A stretch of DNA of 5,529 bases from the NCBI GenBank assembly GCA_024681275.1, contig JAILBD010000062.1:1-5529 (forward strand), given 5' to 3'. The stretch comes from Erysipelotrichaceae bacterium. Lineage in GTDB: Bacteria; Bacillota_I; Bacilli_A; Erysipelotrichales; Erysipelotrichaceae. Below, piece after piece: positions 1 through 5,529 of the stretch (position 1 is the stretch's first letter; each line of letters starts with the position of its first letter). The position numbers and the translations under genes are program-made. A model generated the notes under the pieces. It saw only the letters and a program-made list of their open reading frames with translations. It ran no database searches and was not told the origin of the DNA.

Positions 1-137
1 TCGACAAGATCTATGACACGGAAACGACCTACATCTTCGCTCTGGATGATGAAAGGAAAGTGGAAACGATCAAGGAATACACAAAAGGCATCTCCCCGAT
101 CAAGATCGGTGAACAGCGCCTGCAGAAAGAAGTATAA
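1..137 (+). CDS. 3' end of an unrecognised protein (partial)
   Basis: The reading frame starting at base 3 is open from the window edge to a TAA at 135-137, immediately followed by TAG. It gives a 44-residue C-terminus, beginning DKIYDTETTYIF and ending GEQRLQKEV, with balanced charge and ordinary soluble-protein composition. The overlapping frame through the same bases reads as a Lys/Arg/Ser-rich string and looks non-coding. The stop lies 7 nt before the ATG of the next gene, so the two are probably co-transcribed. No family motif is visible in the fragment and I assign no function. That it is coding rests on composition, the stop position and the tight spacing to the next gene. Confidence 0.55.
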   Translation, partial: DKIYDTETTYIFALDDERKVETIKEYTKGISPIKIGEQRLQKEV

Positions 138-144
138 TAGATTT

Positions 145-489
145 ATGAACACCATCAATCGCTTCATGCCATACATCTACGGGGTCCTGATCATCAGCAT
201 TCTCATCGCCTTGATCGCCCTTTTCATACGCCTTTCCAAGACACTGAAAAAGGCCGCCATGATGAAAGAAGTCGCTGAAGTCCTCAATCAGGAAATGGAA
301 GAGATCAGCACGAAGACGGAGCAGATCGCCAGGACCAAAGACAGCTGGACCTTCTTTGTGGCCCTCTTTGGCGCATGGTTCATCATCAAAGAGACCTTCA
401 AGTATTACAAGAGCGAGAGATCGCTGCCGAAGTCCTTCACCAAAGCGCTGATGCGCCATTCTTCCCAGATCTCCAAGCTCAGGTTCTAG
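145..489 (+). CDS. small two-helix membrane protein of unknown function
   Basis: This predicts a 114-residue protein. The frame stays open upstream to the ATG at 13, but that extension is a Lys/Arg/Ser-rich shadow of the preceding gene, so I chose the ATG at 145. It lies 7 nt after the previous stop and has a purine-rich AGAAAGAAG about 12 nt upstream, a weak ribosome binding site. A strongly hydrophobic segment spans about residues 10-29. A charged, probably helical or coiled-coil stretch spans 32-67 (KKAAMMKEVAEVLNQEMEEI and on), and a second hydrophobic segment spans about 68-82. The tail is basic (KYYKSERSLPKS, ending KLRF). This suggests a small integral membrane protein with a helical loop between two membrane segments. 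I do not recognise the family. It could be an accessory subunit of the upstream gene's product. It ends just before a strong hairpin terminator. Confidence 0.7.
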   Translation: MNTINRFMPYIYGVLIISILIALIALFIRLSKTLKKAAMMKEVAEVLNQEMEEISTKTEQIARTKDSWTFFVALFGAWFIIKETFKYYKSERSLPKSFTKALMRHSSQISKLRF

Positions 490-513
490 TCGGCAGGCAA
501 GAAAACATAGCAC

Positions 514-540
514 AAAAAAAGCTGAATGATTCAGCTTTTC
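514..540. terminator. bidirectional Rho-independent terminator
   Basis: AAAAGCTGAA (517-526) pairs perfectly with TTCAGCTTTT (530-539) across a TGA loop, giving a 10-bp stem. Read on the minus strand the stem is followed by a run of seven T, a good U-tract for ending upp transcription, which stops at 547. Read on the plus strand it is followed by T-rich but interrupted sequence (TTTTCGTTTGAC), adequate for the genes ending at 489. Its place between convergent genes in a 57-nt gap fits shared use. The stem has only modest GC, so efficiency is uncertain, more so in the plus direction. Confidence 0.85.
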
Positions 541-546
541 GTTTGA

Positions 547-1167
547 CTATTTTGTCCCGTAGATCCTGTCGCCGGCATCGCCCAGGCCCGGAACGATGTA
601 GCCGATCTCGTTGAGATGATCATCGAGTGCAGCCAGATAGAGGTCGACATCTGGGTGTGCTTCACTGAAAGCTTTGACGCCTTCCGGTGCACCGACCAGA
701 CAGACCATCTTGATGTTCTTAGCGCCTCTGGCTTTGATCATATCGACCGCCGCGATGGCACTGCCGCCTGTCGCCAGCATCGGGTCAAGGACCAGACAGA
801 TGCCTTCTGTCAGCTCCTTGGGGAATTTAGCGAAATACTCGACCGGTTCCAGAGTCTCTTCATCTCTGTAAAGACCGATAAAACCGACCTTTGCAGTAGG
901 GATCAGATCCATGATGCCATTGACCAGACCCATGCCTGCCCTCAGGATCGGAACAAGGATGACTTCTGTGTCAAGTTCTTTGGTATCGCAGGGACCCATC
1001 GGTGTCGTGATATGGACATCTCTCATCGGCAGATCGCGGCATACTTCGTAAGCCATCAGAGATGCGATCTCATCGAGGTTCTCTCTGAAGTCTTTATGAC
1101 CTGTCTCTTCCATGCGCATCAAAGTGAGTTTATGAGTGATCAGCGGATGTTGTAATACTGTAACCAT
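547..1167 (-). CDS. upp: uracil phosphoribosyltransferase
   Basis: Upp converts uracil and PRPP to UMP and pyrophosphate in cytoplasmic pyrimidine salvage. The 206-residue product is close to the usual length of about 208-209 and aligns from memory with the Bacillus enzyme along its whole length. Visible landmarks are [12 protein letters not shown] near the N-terminus (7-18), RDLP (44-47), VPILRAGMG (72-80) and [14 protein letters not shown] (98-111). The PRPP-binding loop is [11 protein letters not shown] (127-137), and the C-terminal uracil-binding signature is [18 protein letters not shown] (189-206). All are intact. The start is supported by AGAGGAGAA at 1176-1184, with 10 nt between GGAG and the ATG, and by the match of residue 1 to the family start. 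It follows the lgt fusion gene by 76 nt on the same strand and is convergent with the plus-strand genes. A promoter just upstream suggests it can be expressed independently. Confidence 0.97.
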
Positions 1168-1199
1168 AGCACTTATTCTCCTCTATTTTTTCCTTTTTC

Positions 1200-1228
1200 A
1201 TTATACTCGAATATCCCGATGATGAAAG
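1200..1228 (-). promoter_or_regulatory. probable sigma-A-type promoter of upp
   Basis: On the minus strand a perfect TATAAT lies at 1200-1205. At 17 nt upstream of it is CTTTCA (1223-1228), a weak -35 matching three of six consensus bases. Transcription would begin near 1193, leaving a short leader of about 25 nt that holds the AGAGGAGAA ribosome binding site. I see no attenuator-like or PyrR-binding-like structure in so short a leader. The -10 is convincing; the -35 is not. Confidence 0.6.
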
Positions 1229-1243
1229 CCCAAAAAACAGGAA

Positions 1244-2707
1244 TCACCTTTTATCGTAGGTAAATGCGACGTCCTTCTTCAGAATATCTATCAGCTGCTC
1301 CATATCGGTGATGGAATCATTGGCTGCCTCAGCCAGCTGCTTCGAACGGACCGGATCATTGAGATAGGCGACCGTATAGGCACCATAATTGATCCCGCAG
1401 CCGATGTCCATCATCGAATCGCCGATCATGATGCATTCCCGGTTCCAGCCATTCCTTTCGACCAGCTTGAAGATCCCCTCCGGATCCGGTTTCTGTTTCT
1501 CGACATCATAGACACCGCAGATATCATCGACATATCCCCTCAAGGAGAAGTCATCGAGTATTCCCTGGATACCTTCTCTGGAACGGGTAGAGATGATGCC
1601 GATCTTGTATCCTTCCTCATGGAGTTTCTTCAGCACCTCATCGGCATGAGGCATCGGATGGTTGGTGATCTTGGCCACCTCGATCTGTCTGTTGTGATAA
1701 TCCTCATAGAGGGTATCGAAATCGATGCCCGGGAAGTATTTCGGGAACAGTGTCCTCAAGGCCGGACCGATGATCTCCTGCTGTACCTCGTCGGTGAACT
1801 TTTCTTCATCCGAATACTTCTGGAAAAGGTAGCGGTAGGCTTCCACGATCCCTTGTCTGGTATCCATCAGCGTTCCGTCGAAGTCGAACATCAATGTCGG
1901 CTTCTCTTTTTTAATGAATCTGTCCAGAACGCCCAGATAACCCAGGATACCGACGATGAAGAAGACGACCGAGGTCAGCTGTGCCATCTTCAGATTGCCC
2001 AGATAAAGGGAATCCGTCCTTCTTCCTTCGATGAAGAAACGGATCAGACCATACCACATCAGATAGGCATACGCCAGGTCGCCACGCTTGTTCTGCCTCT
2101 TCTTCAGGATCAGATAGATCAGCACCCAGCCCAGCAGGCACAAGACAGACTCATAGAAGAAGAGTGGTTCATAATAGTGCCCCTTTATCAACATGCCCTC
2201 TTTCAGGAAAGAAAGGATGCCGTTGAAGTATCCTTCGCTCACTTCCGCGCCATGGCATTCCTTGTTGACGAAGTTGCCCCAGCGACCGCTCGCCTGTCCA
2301 AGAAGAACATTAGGCAGGACGATGTCCAGAAGCTTCATGAACGGATAGTGGTTCTTTCTGATATAGAACCAGGCAAAGATCGCGCCGAAGACCAGACCGC
2401 CCTGTATCGCCAGCCCTCCATCCCAGATCCGGATGATCTCCAGCGGATGAGAGATGTAATAGGAGAAGTTGTAGAACATGCAGAACCACAGTCTGGCACC
2501 GATGATGCCTGCCCACAGGGTGTAGATGAAGAAGGAATCAAAGAAGTCCAGAGAGATATAGCGCGCCTTCTTCACATCCTTTCTGGCGACCGTGTAAGCC
2601 AGCATCGCTCCAAAGAGGATCAGCACGGCATACCAGCGGATATCCAGCGTCAGAGAAAAGATCGAAAACTTGACGAATGTTTCCGGATCAGGGAAAAAAC
2701 GTATCAT
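1244..2707 (-). CDS. lgt: fusion: prolipoprotein diacylglyceryl transferase (Lgt) + PpaX-like HAD phosphatase
   Basis: A single uninterrupted 487-residue frame holds two enzymes. Residues 1-265 are Lgt, the membrane enzyme that moves diacylglycerol from phosphatidylglycerol to the lipobox cysteine of prolipoproteins. About seven hydrophobic segments are visible (roughly 25-41, 54-78, 98-116, 124-140, 182-201, 212-226, 242-262). The Lgt signature is GRWGNFVNKECHG (141-153), and a conserved Arg/Asp motif, EGRRTDS, is at 227-233. The usual H-G-G motif reads IQGG, with Gln at 102. Residues 270-475 are a HAD hydrolase with all four motifs: DFDGTL (Asp275, Asp277), IISTRS (Thr374), KPDP (Lys406) and IGDSMMD (Asp430, Asp434). 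EIIGPALRTLF (311-321) resembles the cap region of the pyrophosphatase PpaX. The ATG overlaps the hprK stop as ATGA, with AAGGAAGGGGG at 2715-2725, 7 nt upstream. In B. subtilis hprK, lgt and ppaX are separate consecutive genes. The phosphatase substrate (pyrophosphate or a phosphoester) is inferred. Confidence 0.93.
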   Translation of the reverse strand: MIRFFPDPETFVKFSIFSLTLDIRWYAVLILFGAMLAYTVARKDVKKARYISLDFFDSFFIYTLWAGIIGARLWFCMFYNFSYYISHPLEIIRIWDGGLAIQGGLVFGAIFAWFYIRKNHYPFMKLLDIVLPNVLLGQASGRWGNFVNKECHGAEVSEGYFNGILSFLKEGMLIKGHYYEPLFFYESVLCLLGWVLIYLILKKRQNKRGDLAYAYLMWYGLIRFFIEGRRTDSLYLGNLKMAQLTSVVFFIVGILGYLGVLDRFIKKEKPTLMFDFDGTLMDTRQGIVEAYRYLFQKYSDEEKFTDEVQQEIIGPALRTLFPKYFPGIDFDTLYEDYHNRQIEVAKITNHPMPHADEVLKKLHEEGYKIGIISTRSREGIQGILDDFSLRGYVDDICGVYDVEKQKPDPEGIFKLVERNGWNRECIMIGDSMMDIGCGINYGAYTVAYLNDPVRSKQLAEAANDSITDMEQLIDILKKDVAFTYDKR

Positions 2708-3654
2708 CTCTGTGCCCCCTTCCTTTCAAGTTCCTGACGGTAACGGGTCTTGAAATCCTCATTGGAATTGAAACCCAGTTTGCTTAAAAGATAGTTGGAA
2801 ACGGCTGCCTCGATGATGACGGAAAGCGACTTGCCTTCTGTGATCGGAATGATCAGCATCGGGACTTCCAGTCCCAGCACATCGTAATTCTCGTTGATCG
2901 GATTGAGGCGGTCATTCTCCATGTTCTCATCGTATTTGACCAGTTTGATCACAAAATCCAGCTGGCAGCGGTTCAAATATGCATTCGCGCCGAACATCCT
3001 GGTCACATCCACAATGCCGATACCTCTGATCTCCAGCATCCGCTTCAGGATGGCCGGAGCCTCGCAGATGATGGACTTGTGGACCCTTCTGACATCTACT
3101 CTGTCGTCTGCCACCAGCATGTGGCCACGGTTGATCAGATCCAAGGCAAGTTCGGACTTACCTATGCCGGATTTACCTGTGATCATGATGCCCCTTCCAT
3201 AGATGTTCATCATGACGCCGTATAAGGAATCGGTCGGTGCCAGTTTTTCCGAAAGGAAAGAGACCAGATCGACGATCAGCTGATAGGTCTGCCCCTCATA
3301 ACGGAAGATCGGAAAGTTCTTGGCATTCGCCAGATCCGTCAAAGAGGCCATCGGCGTGAATTCGCCCGACAGGATGATGCATGGGGTGTAGGAGTCGGTG
3401 ATGATCTCAAAACGGGCCCGTTGGGTATTGTAGTCGAACTTTGACATGTATTCATGTTCCTTGGTACCCAGTATGACCACACGTTTGAGGTCGTTGGACT
3501 CCAGATAGCCGGACAGTTCCAGTCCCGGCCTGTTGATATCAGGGGCGATCGCCCAACGGTTCAGGGAATCATCGTTCCCCGTCAGCTGTTCCAGGCCCAG
3601 CTGTTCCTTGATCTGACGTACATATACTCTTTTGTTCAGTTCATTGTTTGCCAT
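2704..3654 (-). CDS. hprK: HPr kinase/phosphorylase
   Basis: HprK phosphorylates Ser46 of the PTS carrier HPr and removes that phosphate by phosphorolysis, forming pyrophosphate. It is the sensor that drives CcpA-dependent catabolite control in Bacillota. The 316-residue length is typical. Residues 1-135 form the N-terminal domain ([12 protein letters not shown] at 40-51). The kinase domain carries the P-loop GKSGIGKSE (160-168), RGHMLVADD (176-184, with the Asp pair 183-184) and the family signature [18 protein letters not shown] (208-225). The C-terminal segment [10 protein letters not shown] (278-287) also fits. Two departures are visible. The usual S-L-H-G-V before the P-loop reads SLYGV, with Tyr145. 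The usual R-P-G-R-N-L-A near the C-terminus reads TEGKSLS (272-278). The ATG lies inside the end of uvrA (14-nt overlap), with AGGTG at 3661-3665, 6 nt upstream, and the stop overlaps the lgt start by 4 nt. Expression is probably coupled to both neighbours. Confidence 0.96.
2715..2726 (-). promoter_or_regulatory. strong ribosome binding site of the lgt fusion gene
   Basis: The purine run AAAGGAAGGGGG within the last codons of hprK lies 7 nt before the lgt ATG. With the ATGA stop/start overlap it decides this start and indicates both reinitiation and independent ribosome loading. Confidence 0.75.
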
Positions 3655-5529
3655 GTTTCACACCTAATACTTTCTTCAGATATTGACCTGTGTAGGATCT
3701 TTCTATTTCTGCGACCTCCTCCGGAGTGCCTTCAGCGATGACCTCACCACCCCTGTCTCCACCATCAGGACCCAGATCGATGATGTGGTCAGCACATTTG
3801 ATCACATCCAGATTGTGTTCGATGACGACGACCGAATCGCCATTGTCGACGATGCGGTCGATGATGCGGATCAGCTTCAGGACATCATCCATATGCAAGC
3901 CAGTCGTGGGCTCATCCAGGACGAACATCGTCTTGCCCGTCGGCTTCTTCTGCAGTTCTGAAGCCAGCTTGACGCGCTGCGCCTCACCGCCGGAAAGCGT
4001 CGTTGCGCTCTGTCCCAGTTCGATATAACCCAAGCCCACATCATATAAGACCTGCAGCTTGTCTTTGATCCGCTTATGATTCTTGAAGAATTCCAGAGCC
4101 TCTTTGACCGGCATCTTCAGGACATCATAGATATTCTTCCCTCTGTATCTGACTTCCAGGGTCTCGGAATTGTAGCGCTTGCCATGACACTCTTCACACT
4201 CCACATAGACATCCGGGATGAACAGCATCGAGATGCGCTTGACACCATCGCCCTGGCAGGCTTCACACCTGCCTCCGGGCACATTGAACGAATAACGTGA
4301 CTTGGAGTAACCGCGTTCCTTGGAATCCGGTGTCATCGCATAGAGATCGCGGATATCGTCGAAAACACCGGTATAGGTCGCCGGATTGGAACGAGGCGTC
4401 CTGCCGATCGGATCCTGGGTGATGTAGACGATCTTGTCGATATTCTTGAGGCCCTCCACCTTCTTCACCTTGCCCGGTCTGATCTTGACCCGATCCAGCG
4501 ATTTCATGATCGACTTGGTCATCGTCTCGATGATCAGGGATGACTTTCCGGAACCGGAAACGCCGGTCACACAGGTGAATTTGCCCAAAGGGATGGAAAC
4601 ATCGATGTTCTTCAGATTGTTCTCTTGCGCACCAATGATCTTTATCGTCTTGCCGTTGCCTTTCCTTCTCTTGGACGGGATCGGGATCTCCTTCCTGAAA
4701 GAAAGATACTGGCCGGTGATCGACTTCTCATCTTTGAGGATCTCTTCCGGTGTGCCCGCAAAGACGACTTCTCCGCCCTCCTTGCCGGCACCAGGACCGA
4801 TATCAACGATATAGTCGGAGCTCAGCATCGTCTCGCCATCGTGTTCGACGACGATCACGGTGTTGTCCAGATCTCTCATCTTCTTCAGGGTCTCGATCAG
4901 TTTGGCATTGTCCTTCTGATGCAGACCGATCGAAGGCTCATCCAGCACATAGAGGACACCGGTCAAAGCGGAACCGATCTGCGTCGCCAGACGGATGCGC
5001 TGCGCCTCACCGCCGGATAAGGATCCGGCTGCACGATCCAGTGTCAGATAATCCAGACCGACATCCTTCAGAAAACGCAGTCTGGCCTTCAGTTCATTCA
5101 ACAAAGTCCTGGCGATCTCAGCCCGCATCGGATCCAGTTTCAGCTGATCCAGGAAATCATACGCCTGGGTGATGGAAGCGCAGGTCGATTCATAGATGTT
5201 CTCTCCGCCGACCTTGACGGAAAGGACCTTCTCGTTGAGCCTGGCACCGTGGCACTTGCTGCACTCGGATTCCACCATGAAGGAACCATAGTACTCCTTG
5301 CCGAATTTCGACTGCGTCTCTTCGAATCTTCTCTCGATCAGATTCTTGACACCTTCGATATAGCCGTATTTGTTGTATGTGGTCCCGCCGGTGGAAGTGA
5401 CCGTATAACGGATCTCCTCGGTGGAACCGTAAAGGATGATATCCATCTCCTTCTTGCTCATCTTGTCCAGAGGTTTGGTCTCGGAGATCCCGTAATGTTT
5501 TAGGAGCGTCGCAAAGTTCTGCCATTCCA
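3641..5529 (-). CDS. uvrA: excinuclease ABC subunit A, C-terminal two thirds (partial)
   Basis: UvrA is the damage-recognition ATPase of nucleotide excision repair; it loads UvrB onto lesions. The frame is open to the window's right edge: the bases before the internal Met codon at 5459-5461 continue in frame as [20 protein letters not shown], so that Met is not the start. About 628 residues of the usual 940 or so are visible. Counting from that Met, the features in order are: CSKCHGARL (67-75); the first ABC signature LSGGEAQR (148-155) and Walker [12 protein letters not shown] (171-181); the second Walker [10 protein letters not shown] (300-308); the zinc-finger pairs Cys399/402 and Cys422/425 in [11 protein letters not shown] and [10 protein letters not shown]; and the second signature LSGGEAQR (489-496) with Walker [12 protein letters not shown] (513-523). 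The missing part holds the first Walker A and UvrB-binding region. The stop lies 14 nt inside hprK. Nothing looks broken. Confidence 0.97.
3661..3665 (-). promoter_or_regulatory. ribosome binding site of hprK inside uvrA
   Basis: AGGTG on the minus strand ends 6 nt before the hprK ATG at 3652-3654. It lies within the final codons of uvrA, which supports this start and a 14-nt coding overlap. It is shorter than the lgt site, so reinitiation after uvrA translation is likely to contribute. Confidence 0.6.

Follow-up and report, generated by a model that had tools for sequence, protein, structure and literature searches.

In an Erysipelotrichaceae bacterium and many of its relatives, the lipoprotein diacylglyceryl transferase gene lgt continues in one reading frame into a gene for a PpaX-like HAD phosphatase, and this lgt::HAD fusion is genuine and common and does not stem from a sequencing error. 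The window, by which we mean the whole stretch of DNA that was analysed, is 5,529 nt long (GCA_024681275.1, contig JAILBD010000062.1, positions 1 to 5,529, forward strand). The reading that we consider best, with a probability of roughly 0.6, is that former neighbours in an hprK-lgt-ppaX order gave a bifunctional protein, in which the Lgt part would both carry out its transfer reaction and act as an anchor, and the HAD part would be an HprK-linked phosphatase.

The fused gene overlaps hprK by 4 nt (ATGA), and a purine-rich, Shine-Dalgarno-like stretch precedes its ATG (Table 1). Nearly every locus of sufficient length has the order uvrA-hprK-lgt, and uvrA-hprK-lgt::HAD is likewise recurrent among relatives. 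Compared with the hprK-lgt-ppaX order of Bacillota, the gene order is identical with the last two genes joined, but these form one frame without a stop, and the Lgt half decays or is lost in some relatives. A 372-aa plus-strand ORF (1619-2737) overlaps the fused gene in antisense and was taken as its shadow. Elsewhere in the window, a small membrane-like ORF of 114 aa (145-489, plus strand) has no Pfam match over the cut-off, and an ORF of similar size lies on the opposite strand after upp in many relatives. Two opposite-strand ORFs (about 295-398 aa) follow the fusion in L013, L016, L017 and L018, and in L013, L017 and L018 both sit between the fusion and upp. At four loci (L159, L161, L172 and L179) the Lgt match starts only at residue 157-174, after a hydrophobic N-terminal extension, and no hprK is seen between uvrA and lgt.

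Table 1 Features of the window, with positions counted from its first letter
Feature	Position	Strand	Evidence
Fused gene lgt::ppaX-like HAD, 487 aa	1244..2707	-	ORF, Pfam/profile matches and homologues
Lgt part, residues 1-262, predicted membrane enzyme	1922..2707	-	PF01790 220 bits, TIGR00544 193 bits, hydropathy/charge
Lgt signature motif GRWGNFVNKECHG, residues 141-153	2249..2287	-	Motif as in the available text of PMC4728403
Short linker, residues 263-269, of near-fixed length in the order	1901..1921	-	Alignment of fused ORFs
HAD phosphatase part, residues 270-478, PpaX lineage	1274..1900	-	PF13419 131 bits; NF009804 102 bits
HAD motif I DFDGT, residues 275-279	1871..1885	-	Conserved in fused ORFs
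HAD motif III lysine K406	1490..1492	-	Conserved in fused ORFs
HAD motif IV GDSMMD, residues 429-434	1406..1423	-	Conserved in fused ORFs
C-terminal tail with F482-T483 as (W/F)T element	1247..1273	-	Alignment column
hprK, HPr kinase/phosphorylase	2704..3654	-	TIGR00679 322 bits
uvrA, 3' part, runs off the window	3641..5527	-	ABC and UvrA DNA-binding Pfam matches
upp, uracil phosphoribosyltransferase, downstream of the fused gene	547..1167	-	Profile matches

The preliminary description had proposed that an intact Lgt continues in frame into an intact HAD domain, and this is borne out. The frame opens with ATG, has zero internal stops and contains both Pfam domains, PF01790 at residues 16-256 (220 bits, cut-off 24.9) and HAD_2/PF13419 at residues 273-447 (131 bits, cut-off 23.8), with the motifs of both kept. 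Among the 4163 matches in the protein collection, the best 120 are 480-489 aa long, 57-97% identical and cover 99-100% of the query, and both Pfam domains are present in all 120 of these best-listed homologues, so that the junction near position 1900 is conserved. The single-frame fusion also occurs in named isolates and in two complete chromosomes, and its presence there and on many contigs rules out an assembly or frameshift artefact. The start codons at the junction, TTG272 and ATG273 with a weak AGAAG ahead, both lie within the first HAD strand and Met273 varies among fused ORFs, so a separate HAD translation start at this point is unlikely.

Both halves of the intact fusion look catalytic. 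In 100 fused ORFs of more than 440 aa, taken from loci L001-L110 plus the window with repeats included (for example L069/L110), the Lgt residues Y26, R142, N145, N148, E150, R223, E227 and R230 and the HAD residues D275, D277, K406, G429, D430 and D434 are invariant (100 of 100 in each case). TIGR00544 places the fused protein in Lgt at 193.2 bits (curated cut-off 118.9). With known Lgt (PF01790, TIGR00544; 5azb) it shares the profile match, the signature motif, the key polar residues and mostly the expected charge pattern, whereas it differs by its C-terminal phosphatase and by the residue at the position of E. coli His103 (HGGL motif), which is Gln in 74, His in 22 and Tyr in 4 of the 100 fused ORFs and Q102 in the window. 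According to the available text of PMC4728403, E. coli H103A/N/Q/R/Y all failed to complement, so that, unless the Lgts studied here are inactive, His103 cannot be a universal feature. Gln is seen here in separate Lgts too (L079, L128 and L129) and is thus not tied to the fusion. Because Gln or Tyr is found in most fused ORFs and the other residues are kept, our judgement is that the change is a lineage difference and not an exclusion from Lgt.

By the order we mean the order of G003 (the Holdemania filiformis genome, L048) together with 80 loci from the genome collection. These 80 fusion loci include Holdemania filiformis, Anaerorhabdus furcosa and several Erysipelothrix species, and two are on complete chromosomes. 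Lgt is over the cut-off in 279 of the 294 genomes of the order; the best 150 listed Lgt frames comprise 102 of fused length (≥470 aa), 44 of 260-300 aa and 4 of intermediate length. Whole-genome searches of six genomes found no frame other than the fusion that matches the Lgt part, and one Pfam Lgt match in each. A set of 395 genomes of the class beyond the order gave more fusions, at 30-38% identity, and 31 loci among L141-L173 are one frame with both domains. The taxonomic mapping of Lgt-HAD proteins suggested earlier thus finds fusions across the order and others elsewhere in the class. The gap between the two domain matches is 16-59 residues in these distant fusions versus 3-12 in the order, and by alignment column the (W/F)T tail is present in 0 of 34 distant fusions versus 113 of 124 fused loci of the order. 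Together with the separate-gene forms that stand among the distant fusions in the HAD tree, the wider gaps and the missing tail point to more than one lgt-HAD fusion event. Placing the intact-fused label on the trees, starred branches require at least two changes for the HAD and at least five for HprK, a count that includes losses and decays; parts of the backbone are weak in both trees. The homologues with a named organism come from Erysipelotrichaceae metagenome-assembled genomes, where their annotation is prolipoprotein diacylglyceryl transferase, and wherever a name is given the fusion is annotated as Lgt only. The concern that the fusion might already be widespread and described therefore held in its first part only, as no description of an lgt-HAD fusion, nor of ppaX together with hprK and lgt, was found in the literature searched (most subscription journals lie outside its scope).

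Relatives preserve what appear to be the separate components. The region 3' of hprK holds Lgt alone, Lgt followed by a separate HAD gene, the fusion, or a decayed or Lgt-less form. Many relatives have hprK and lgt without a HAD alongside, and at 19 loci (including L079/L125, L128, L129, L168, L174 and L181-L185) a separate HAD gene follows lgt, with no hprK found at two of them. Both of the separate HADs that were scanned score above the PpaX threshold of 218 (L079 232 and L168 243 bits). The arrangement cited in the preliminary description, with both functions as separate adjacent genes behind hprK, does exist among relatives. The window HAD scores 102.1 bits with PpaX (NF009804), below this cut-off, and is for this reason called PpaX lineage and not certified PpaX; the HADs of fused relatives reach up to 216.8 bits. 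For all 10 HAD-bearing proteins scanned, PpaX was the top HAD model, the eight other than L079 and L168 scoring 102 (window), 188 (L048), 137 (L061), 214 (L141), 136 (L178), 176 (L220), 97 (L222) and 140 (L226) bits, and the fused HADs form a distance series from L141 (214) through Holdemania (188) and Erysipelothrix (137) to the window (102). G011 and G015, two genomes without the fusion, have an unlinked HAD over the PpaX cut-off.

A Gly-Pro pair in the HAD cap (P315), a signature derived in this analysis and not a published one, occurs in 157 of 158 fused loci, 18 of 19 adjacent separate HADs, 8 of 8 standalone PpaX-like proteins, 6 of 6 HADs directly following hprK, 12 of 15 pseudo-Lgt proteins and 0 of 16 other HADs from six fused genomes. 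The 158 loci are those left of 163 after five short ones were dropped and represent 135 distinct sequences (L048/L136/L207 are one gene); the 16 other HADs are those with a usable frame among 20, four having none. Relative to PpaX (NF009804, HAD family Ia), the window HAD has the same best HAD model, the link to hprK that is also seen in relatives, the HAD motifs and the cap pair, but it is joined to Lgt, falls under the curated cut-off in the window copy and has an extra C-terminal tail. Because relatives have separate hprK-lgt-ppaX genes and PpaX is the best HAD family, the fusion appears to join two neighbours of an hprK operon. Fused strains had been suspected to lack a separate ppaX, in agreement with which nine matches over the PpaX cut-off were obtained among 195 genomes, none of them in a fused genome. 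For the fused genomes among the matches listed, the fused frame is the best PpaX match, and the next-best HAD scores lower and is sometimes close in kind (G360: 200 vs 146 bits).

The most telling result, unforeseen in the preliminary description, is a pseudo-Lgt joined to a live HAD. In 29 genomes, judged by match ranges, an hprK-linked frame of about 440-510 aa matches the window protein chiefly from the final third of its Lgt half onward; 14 of these genomes were read by sequence (15 loci, L178 and L221 both being from G064). N145, N148, E150, G153 and E227 are lost in all 15 and R230 in 14, with Y26 retained in 12 and R142 in 13, and the HAD residues D275, D277, K406, G429, D430 and D434 are kept in all 15. 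The Lgt model gives 61 bits on L178 (residues 4-137) and 53 bits on L220 (residues 6-134) with a cut-off of 118.9. Hydropathy shows seven hydrophobic peaks in pseudo-Lgt and six in the fused average, in which helix six is weak. In seven close pairs from six genomes, dN/dS is 0.053-0.081 for the dead Lgt half versus 0.024-0.058 for the HAD, which indicates that the dead half is under selection and not debris. The corresponding values are 0.145-0.189 in four less close pseudo-Lgt pairs and 0.021-0.124 for the Lgt of five of eight chosen intact-fused pairs, and most of the distant pseudo-Lgt pairs are saturated. Most of the less close pseudo-Lgt pairs are 50-54% identical in the dead Lgt half versus 66-79% in the HAD, the dead half thus evolving faster at this distance.

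All 29 pseudo-Lgt genomes have at least two PF01790 matches, the best at E values of 3e-52 to 2e-58, and the pseudo-Lgts L178 and L220 are far weaker than the second Lgt (about 1e-19). The second Lgt-family gene was of a GRIGCxxAGCC type in 20 of 20 fetched, these having been sampled because they were listed with a second Lgt. This paralogue, a putative Lgt, is a PF01790 member located elsewhere in the pseudo-Lgt genomes, but it is unfused and without the usual N/N/E signature. In a sister group, the HAD directly follows hprK without any Lgt half at 7 of 7 loci read (including L239). Pseudo-Lgt and Lgt-less forms cluster among the fused rows on starred branches (100 in the HprK tree and 95 in the HAD tree), and the pseudo-Lgt L220 (G098) is placed apart from the main pseudo-Lgt clade, so that Lgt decayed at least twice. 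Retention of the HAD beside hprK after loss or decay of Lgt argues that the phosphatase tracks HprK and not Lgt chemistry. No description of an Lgt pseudoenzyme was found in the literature searched. The near-identical relatives L176/L177 (the same genes as L216 and L217) have an Lgt over the cut-off and a HAD remnant of about 100 aa, in which motif I and the cap are missing and the HFTYNEV end is retained.

E. coli Lgt has seven helices, and this was the basis of the expectation for the window, in which the Lgt part gives six hydropathy peaks. Net positive stretches in fused Lgt are at residues 38-56, 115-125, 200-214 and 256-272 and negative ones at 75-92 and 155-180; stretch 228-240, expected outside, has a charge of +1.35, contrary to the pattern. 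From hydropathy and charge, the HAD half most likely lies on the cytoplasmic face, and the earlier placement at the inner membrane face agrees with the charge pattern for the most part, 228-240 disagreeing. We propose that lgt and ppaX of an old hprK-lgt-ppaX order became one frame, whose Lgt half would perform ordinary lipoprotein diacylglyceryl transfer at the outer side of the membrane and would double, presumably with some benefit, as the membrane anchor of the HAD. The HAD half, on the cytoplasmic side, would be a PpaX-lineage phosphatase with a job tied to HprK and not to the Lgt reaction, most likely the hydrolysis of PPi set free as P-Ser-HPr is dephosphorylated by HprK. Where a genome has a second Lgt, the fused Lgt could then lose its chemistry while its membrane module stays.

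In B. subtilis, PpaX clears PPi from HPr phosphorolysis, although a paper on this was not found in the literature searched. Of 18 genomes with a fused, pseudo-Lgt or Lgt-less form, 17 encode HPr with the Ser46 motif, and the eighteenth (G198) has one unread candidate. The bulk of PPi would be handled anyway, given that a DHHA2 protein of the family II pyrophosphatase type is found in 65 of 66 genomes, fused or not. The lone genome without it (G010) has a family I pyrophosphatase at 184 bits; this family is over the cut-off in 10 of 66 genomes, with only G010 matching nearly the whole model, and a membrane PPase occurs in 16 of 66. The DHHA2 protein and the family I enzyme of G010 rule out the HAD as the cell's only pyrophosphatase. 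The available text of PMC9399212 names an active-site His140 of HprK and a loop that is needed for dephosphorylation. With residues mapped by motif and not by alignment to the protein of that paper, the window HprK has Tyr145 at the presumed His140 position and Lys275 for Arg in the presumed dephosphorylation loop, where the HprK of most relatives has His and Arg. Tyr occupies the presumed His140 position in 21 of 134 fused loci, 20 of these 21 also having Lys for the loop Arg, and Ser occupies it in 13 of 15 pseudo-Lgt and 6 of 6 hprK-HAD loci. Because of the Tyr and Lys, phosphorylase activity may be altered in the HprK of the window clade, and with it the kinase/phosphorylase balance. These residue changes and the near-universal DHHA2 protein make PPi only the leading, unproven candidate substrate of the HAD half, and the window score of 102 against a cut-off of 218 does not certify it.

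A fusion of this kind could also arise when a stop is lost between co-expressed neighbours, with each half functioning independently and nothing gained beyond equal dosage. We find this doubtful as an account of the whole, even though lgt and HAD are adjacent in the unfused arrangement, many relatives keep them as two genes or lack a HAD next to lgt, and the other fusions of the class have wider domain gaps. Against it stand the near-fixed linker, since 94 of the 100 fused ORFs space Y257 and D275 by 17-19 residues, and the purifying selection that preserves the dead Lgt half. The distribution of the (W/F)T tail argues in the same direction, since by alignment column it is common in the fused loci of the order and present in all 15 pseudo-Lgt loci (W followed by T, S or A), but absent from the distant fusions, from all 19 adjacent separate HADs and from all six hprK-HAD forms; when only the final 14 residues were searched for the pattern, (W/F)T was found in 100 of 158 fused and 7 of 15 pseudo-Lgt proteins. 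Occurring with the membrane half and absent without it, the tail follows the membrane module and may be a docking element. A bolder reading, to which we give somewhat less than even odds, is that Lgt serves as a scaffold: the second Lgt would have taken over lipoprotein modification, and the fused half would be a selected pseudoenzyme, arisen at least twice, that holds the phosphatase with its docking tail on the cytoplasmic side of the membrane near HprK/PTS.

The HAD could instead be a housekeeping phosphatase for another metabolite, such as phosphoglycolate or a sugar phosphate, that merely inherited its proximity to hprK. HAD family Ia enzymes have broad substrates, and the sub-threshold PpaX score of the window, the widespread family II pyrophosphatase type protein and the HprK changes in the window's clade would all fit such a role. 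We nevertheless regard it as unlikely, as PpaX lies well above the next HAD model (102 vs 60, 188 vs 114 and 214 vs 98 bits) and the cap pair common to PpaX is missing in all 16 other HADs. The preliminary description had also offered glycerol-1-phosphate released by Lgt as a substrate, for which the physical fusion is the one argument. In the available text of PMC4728403, the glycerol-1-phosphate of E. coli Lgt is proposed to leave by a periplasmic exit, on the membrane face opposite to that where the charge pattern places the HAD, and the HAD stays with hprK where Lgt is dead or gone; this substrate is therefore very improbable. With glycerol-1-phosphate proposed to leave on the periplasmic side and the HAD placed inside mostly by charge, the HAD most likely works for HprK, and the combined evidence speaks for a PpaX-like function linked to HprK on the cytoplasmic face of the membrane.

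Annotation as Lgt only masks a second predicted catalytic domain across much of an order of gut bacteria. The relatives offer a natural series, with separate genes, the fusion, a dead Lgt with a live HAD, a live Lgt with a decayed HAD, and the HAD alone, that reveals the probable partner of the phosphatase and points to membrane PPi handling as a testable part of HPr/PTS regulation.
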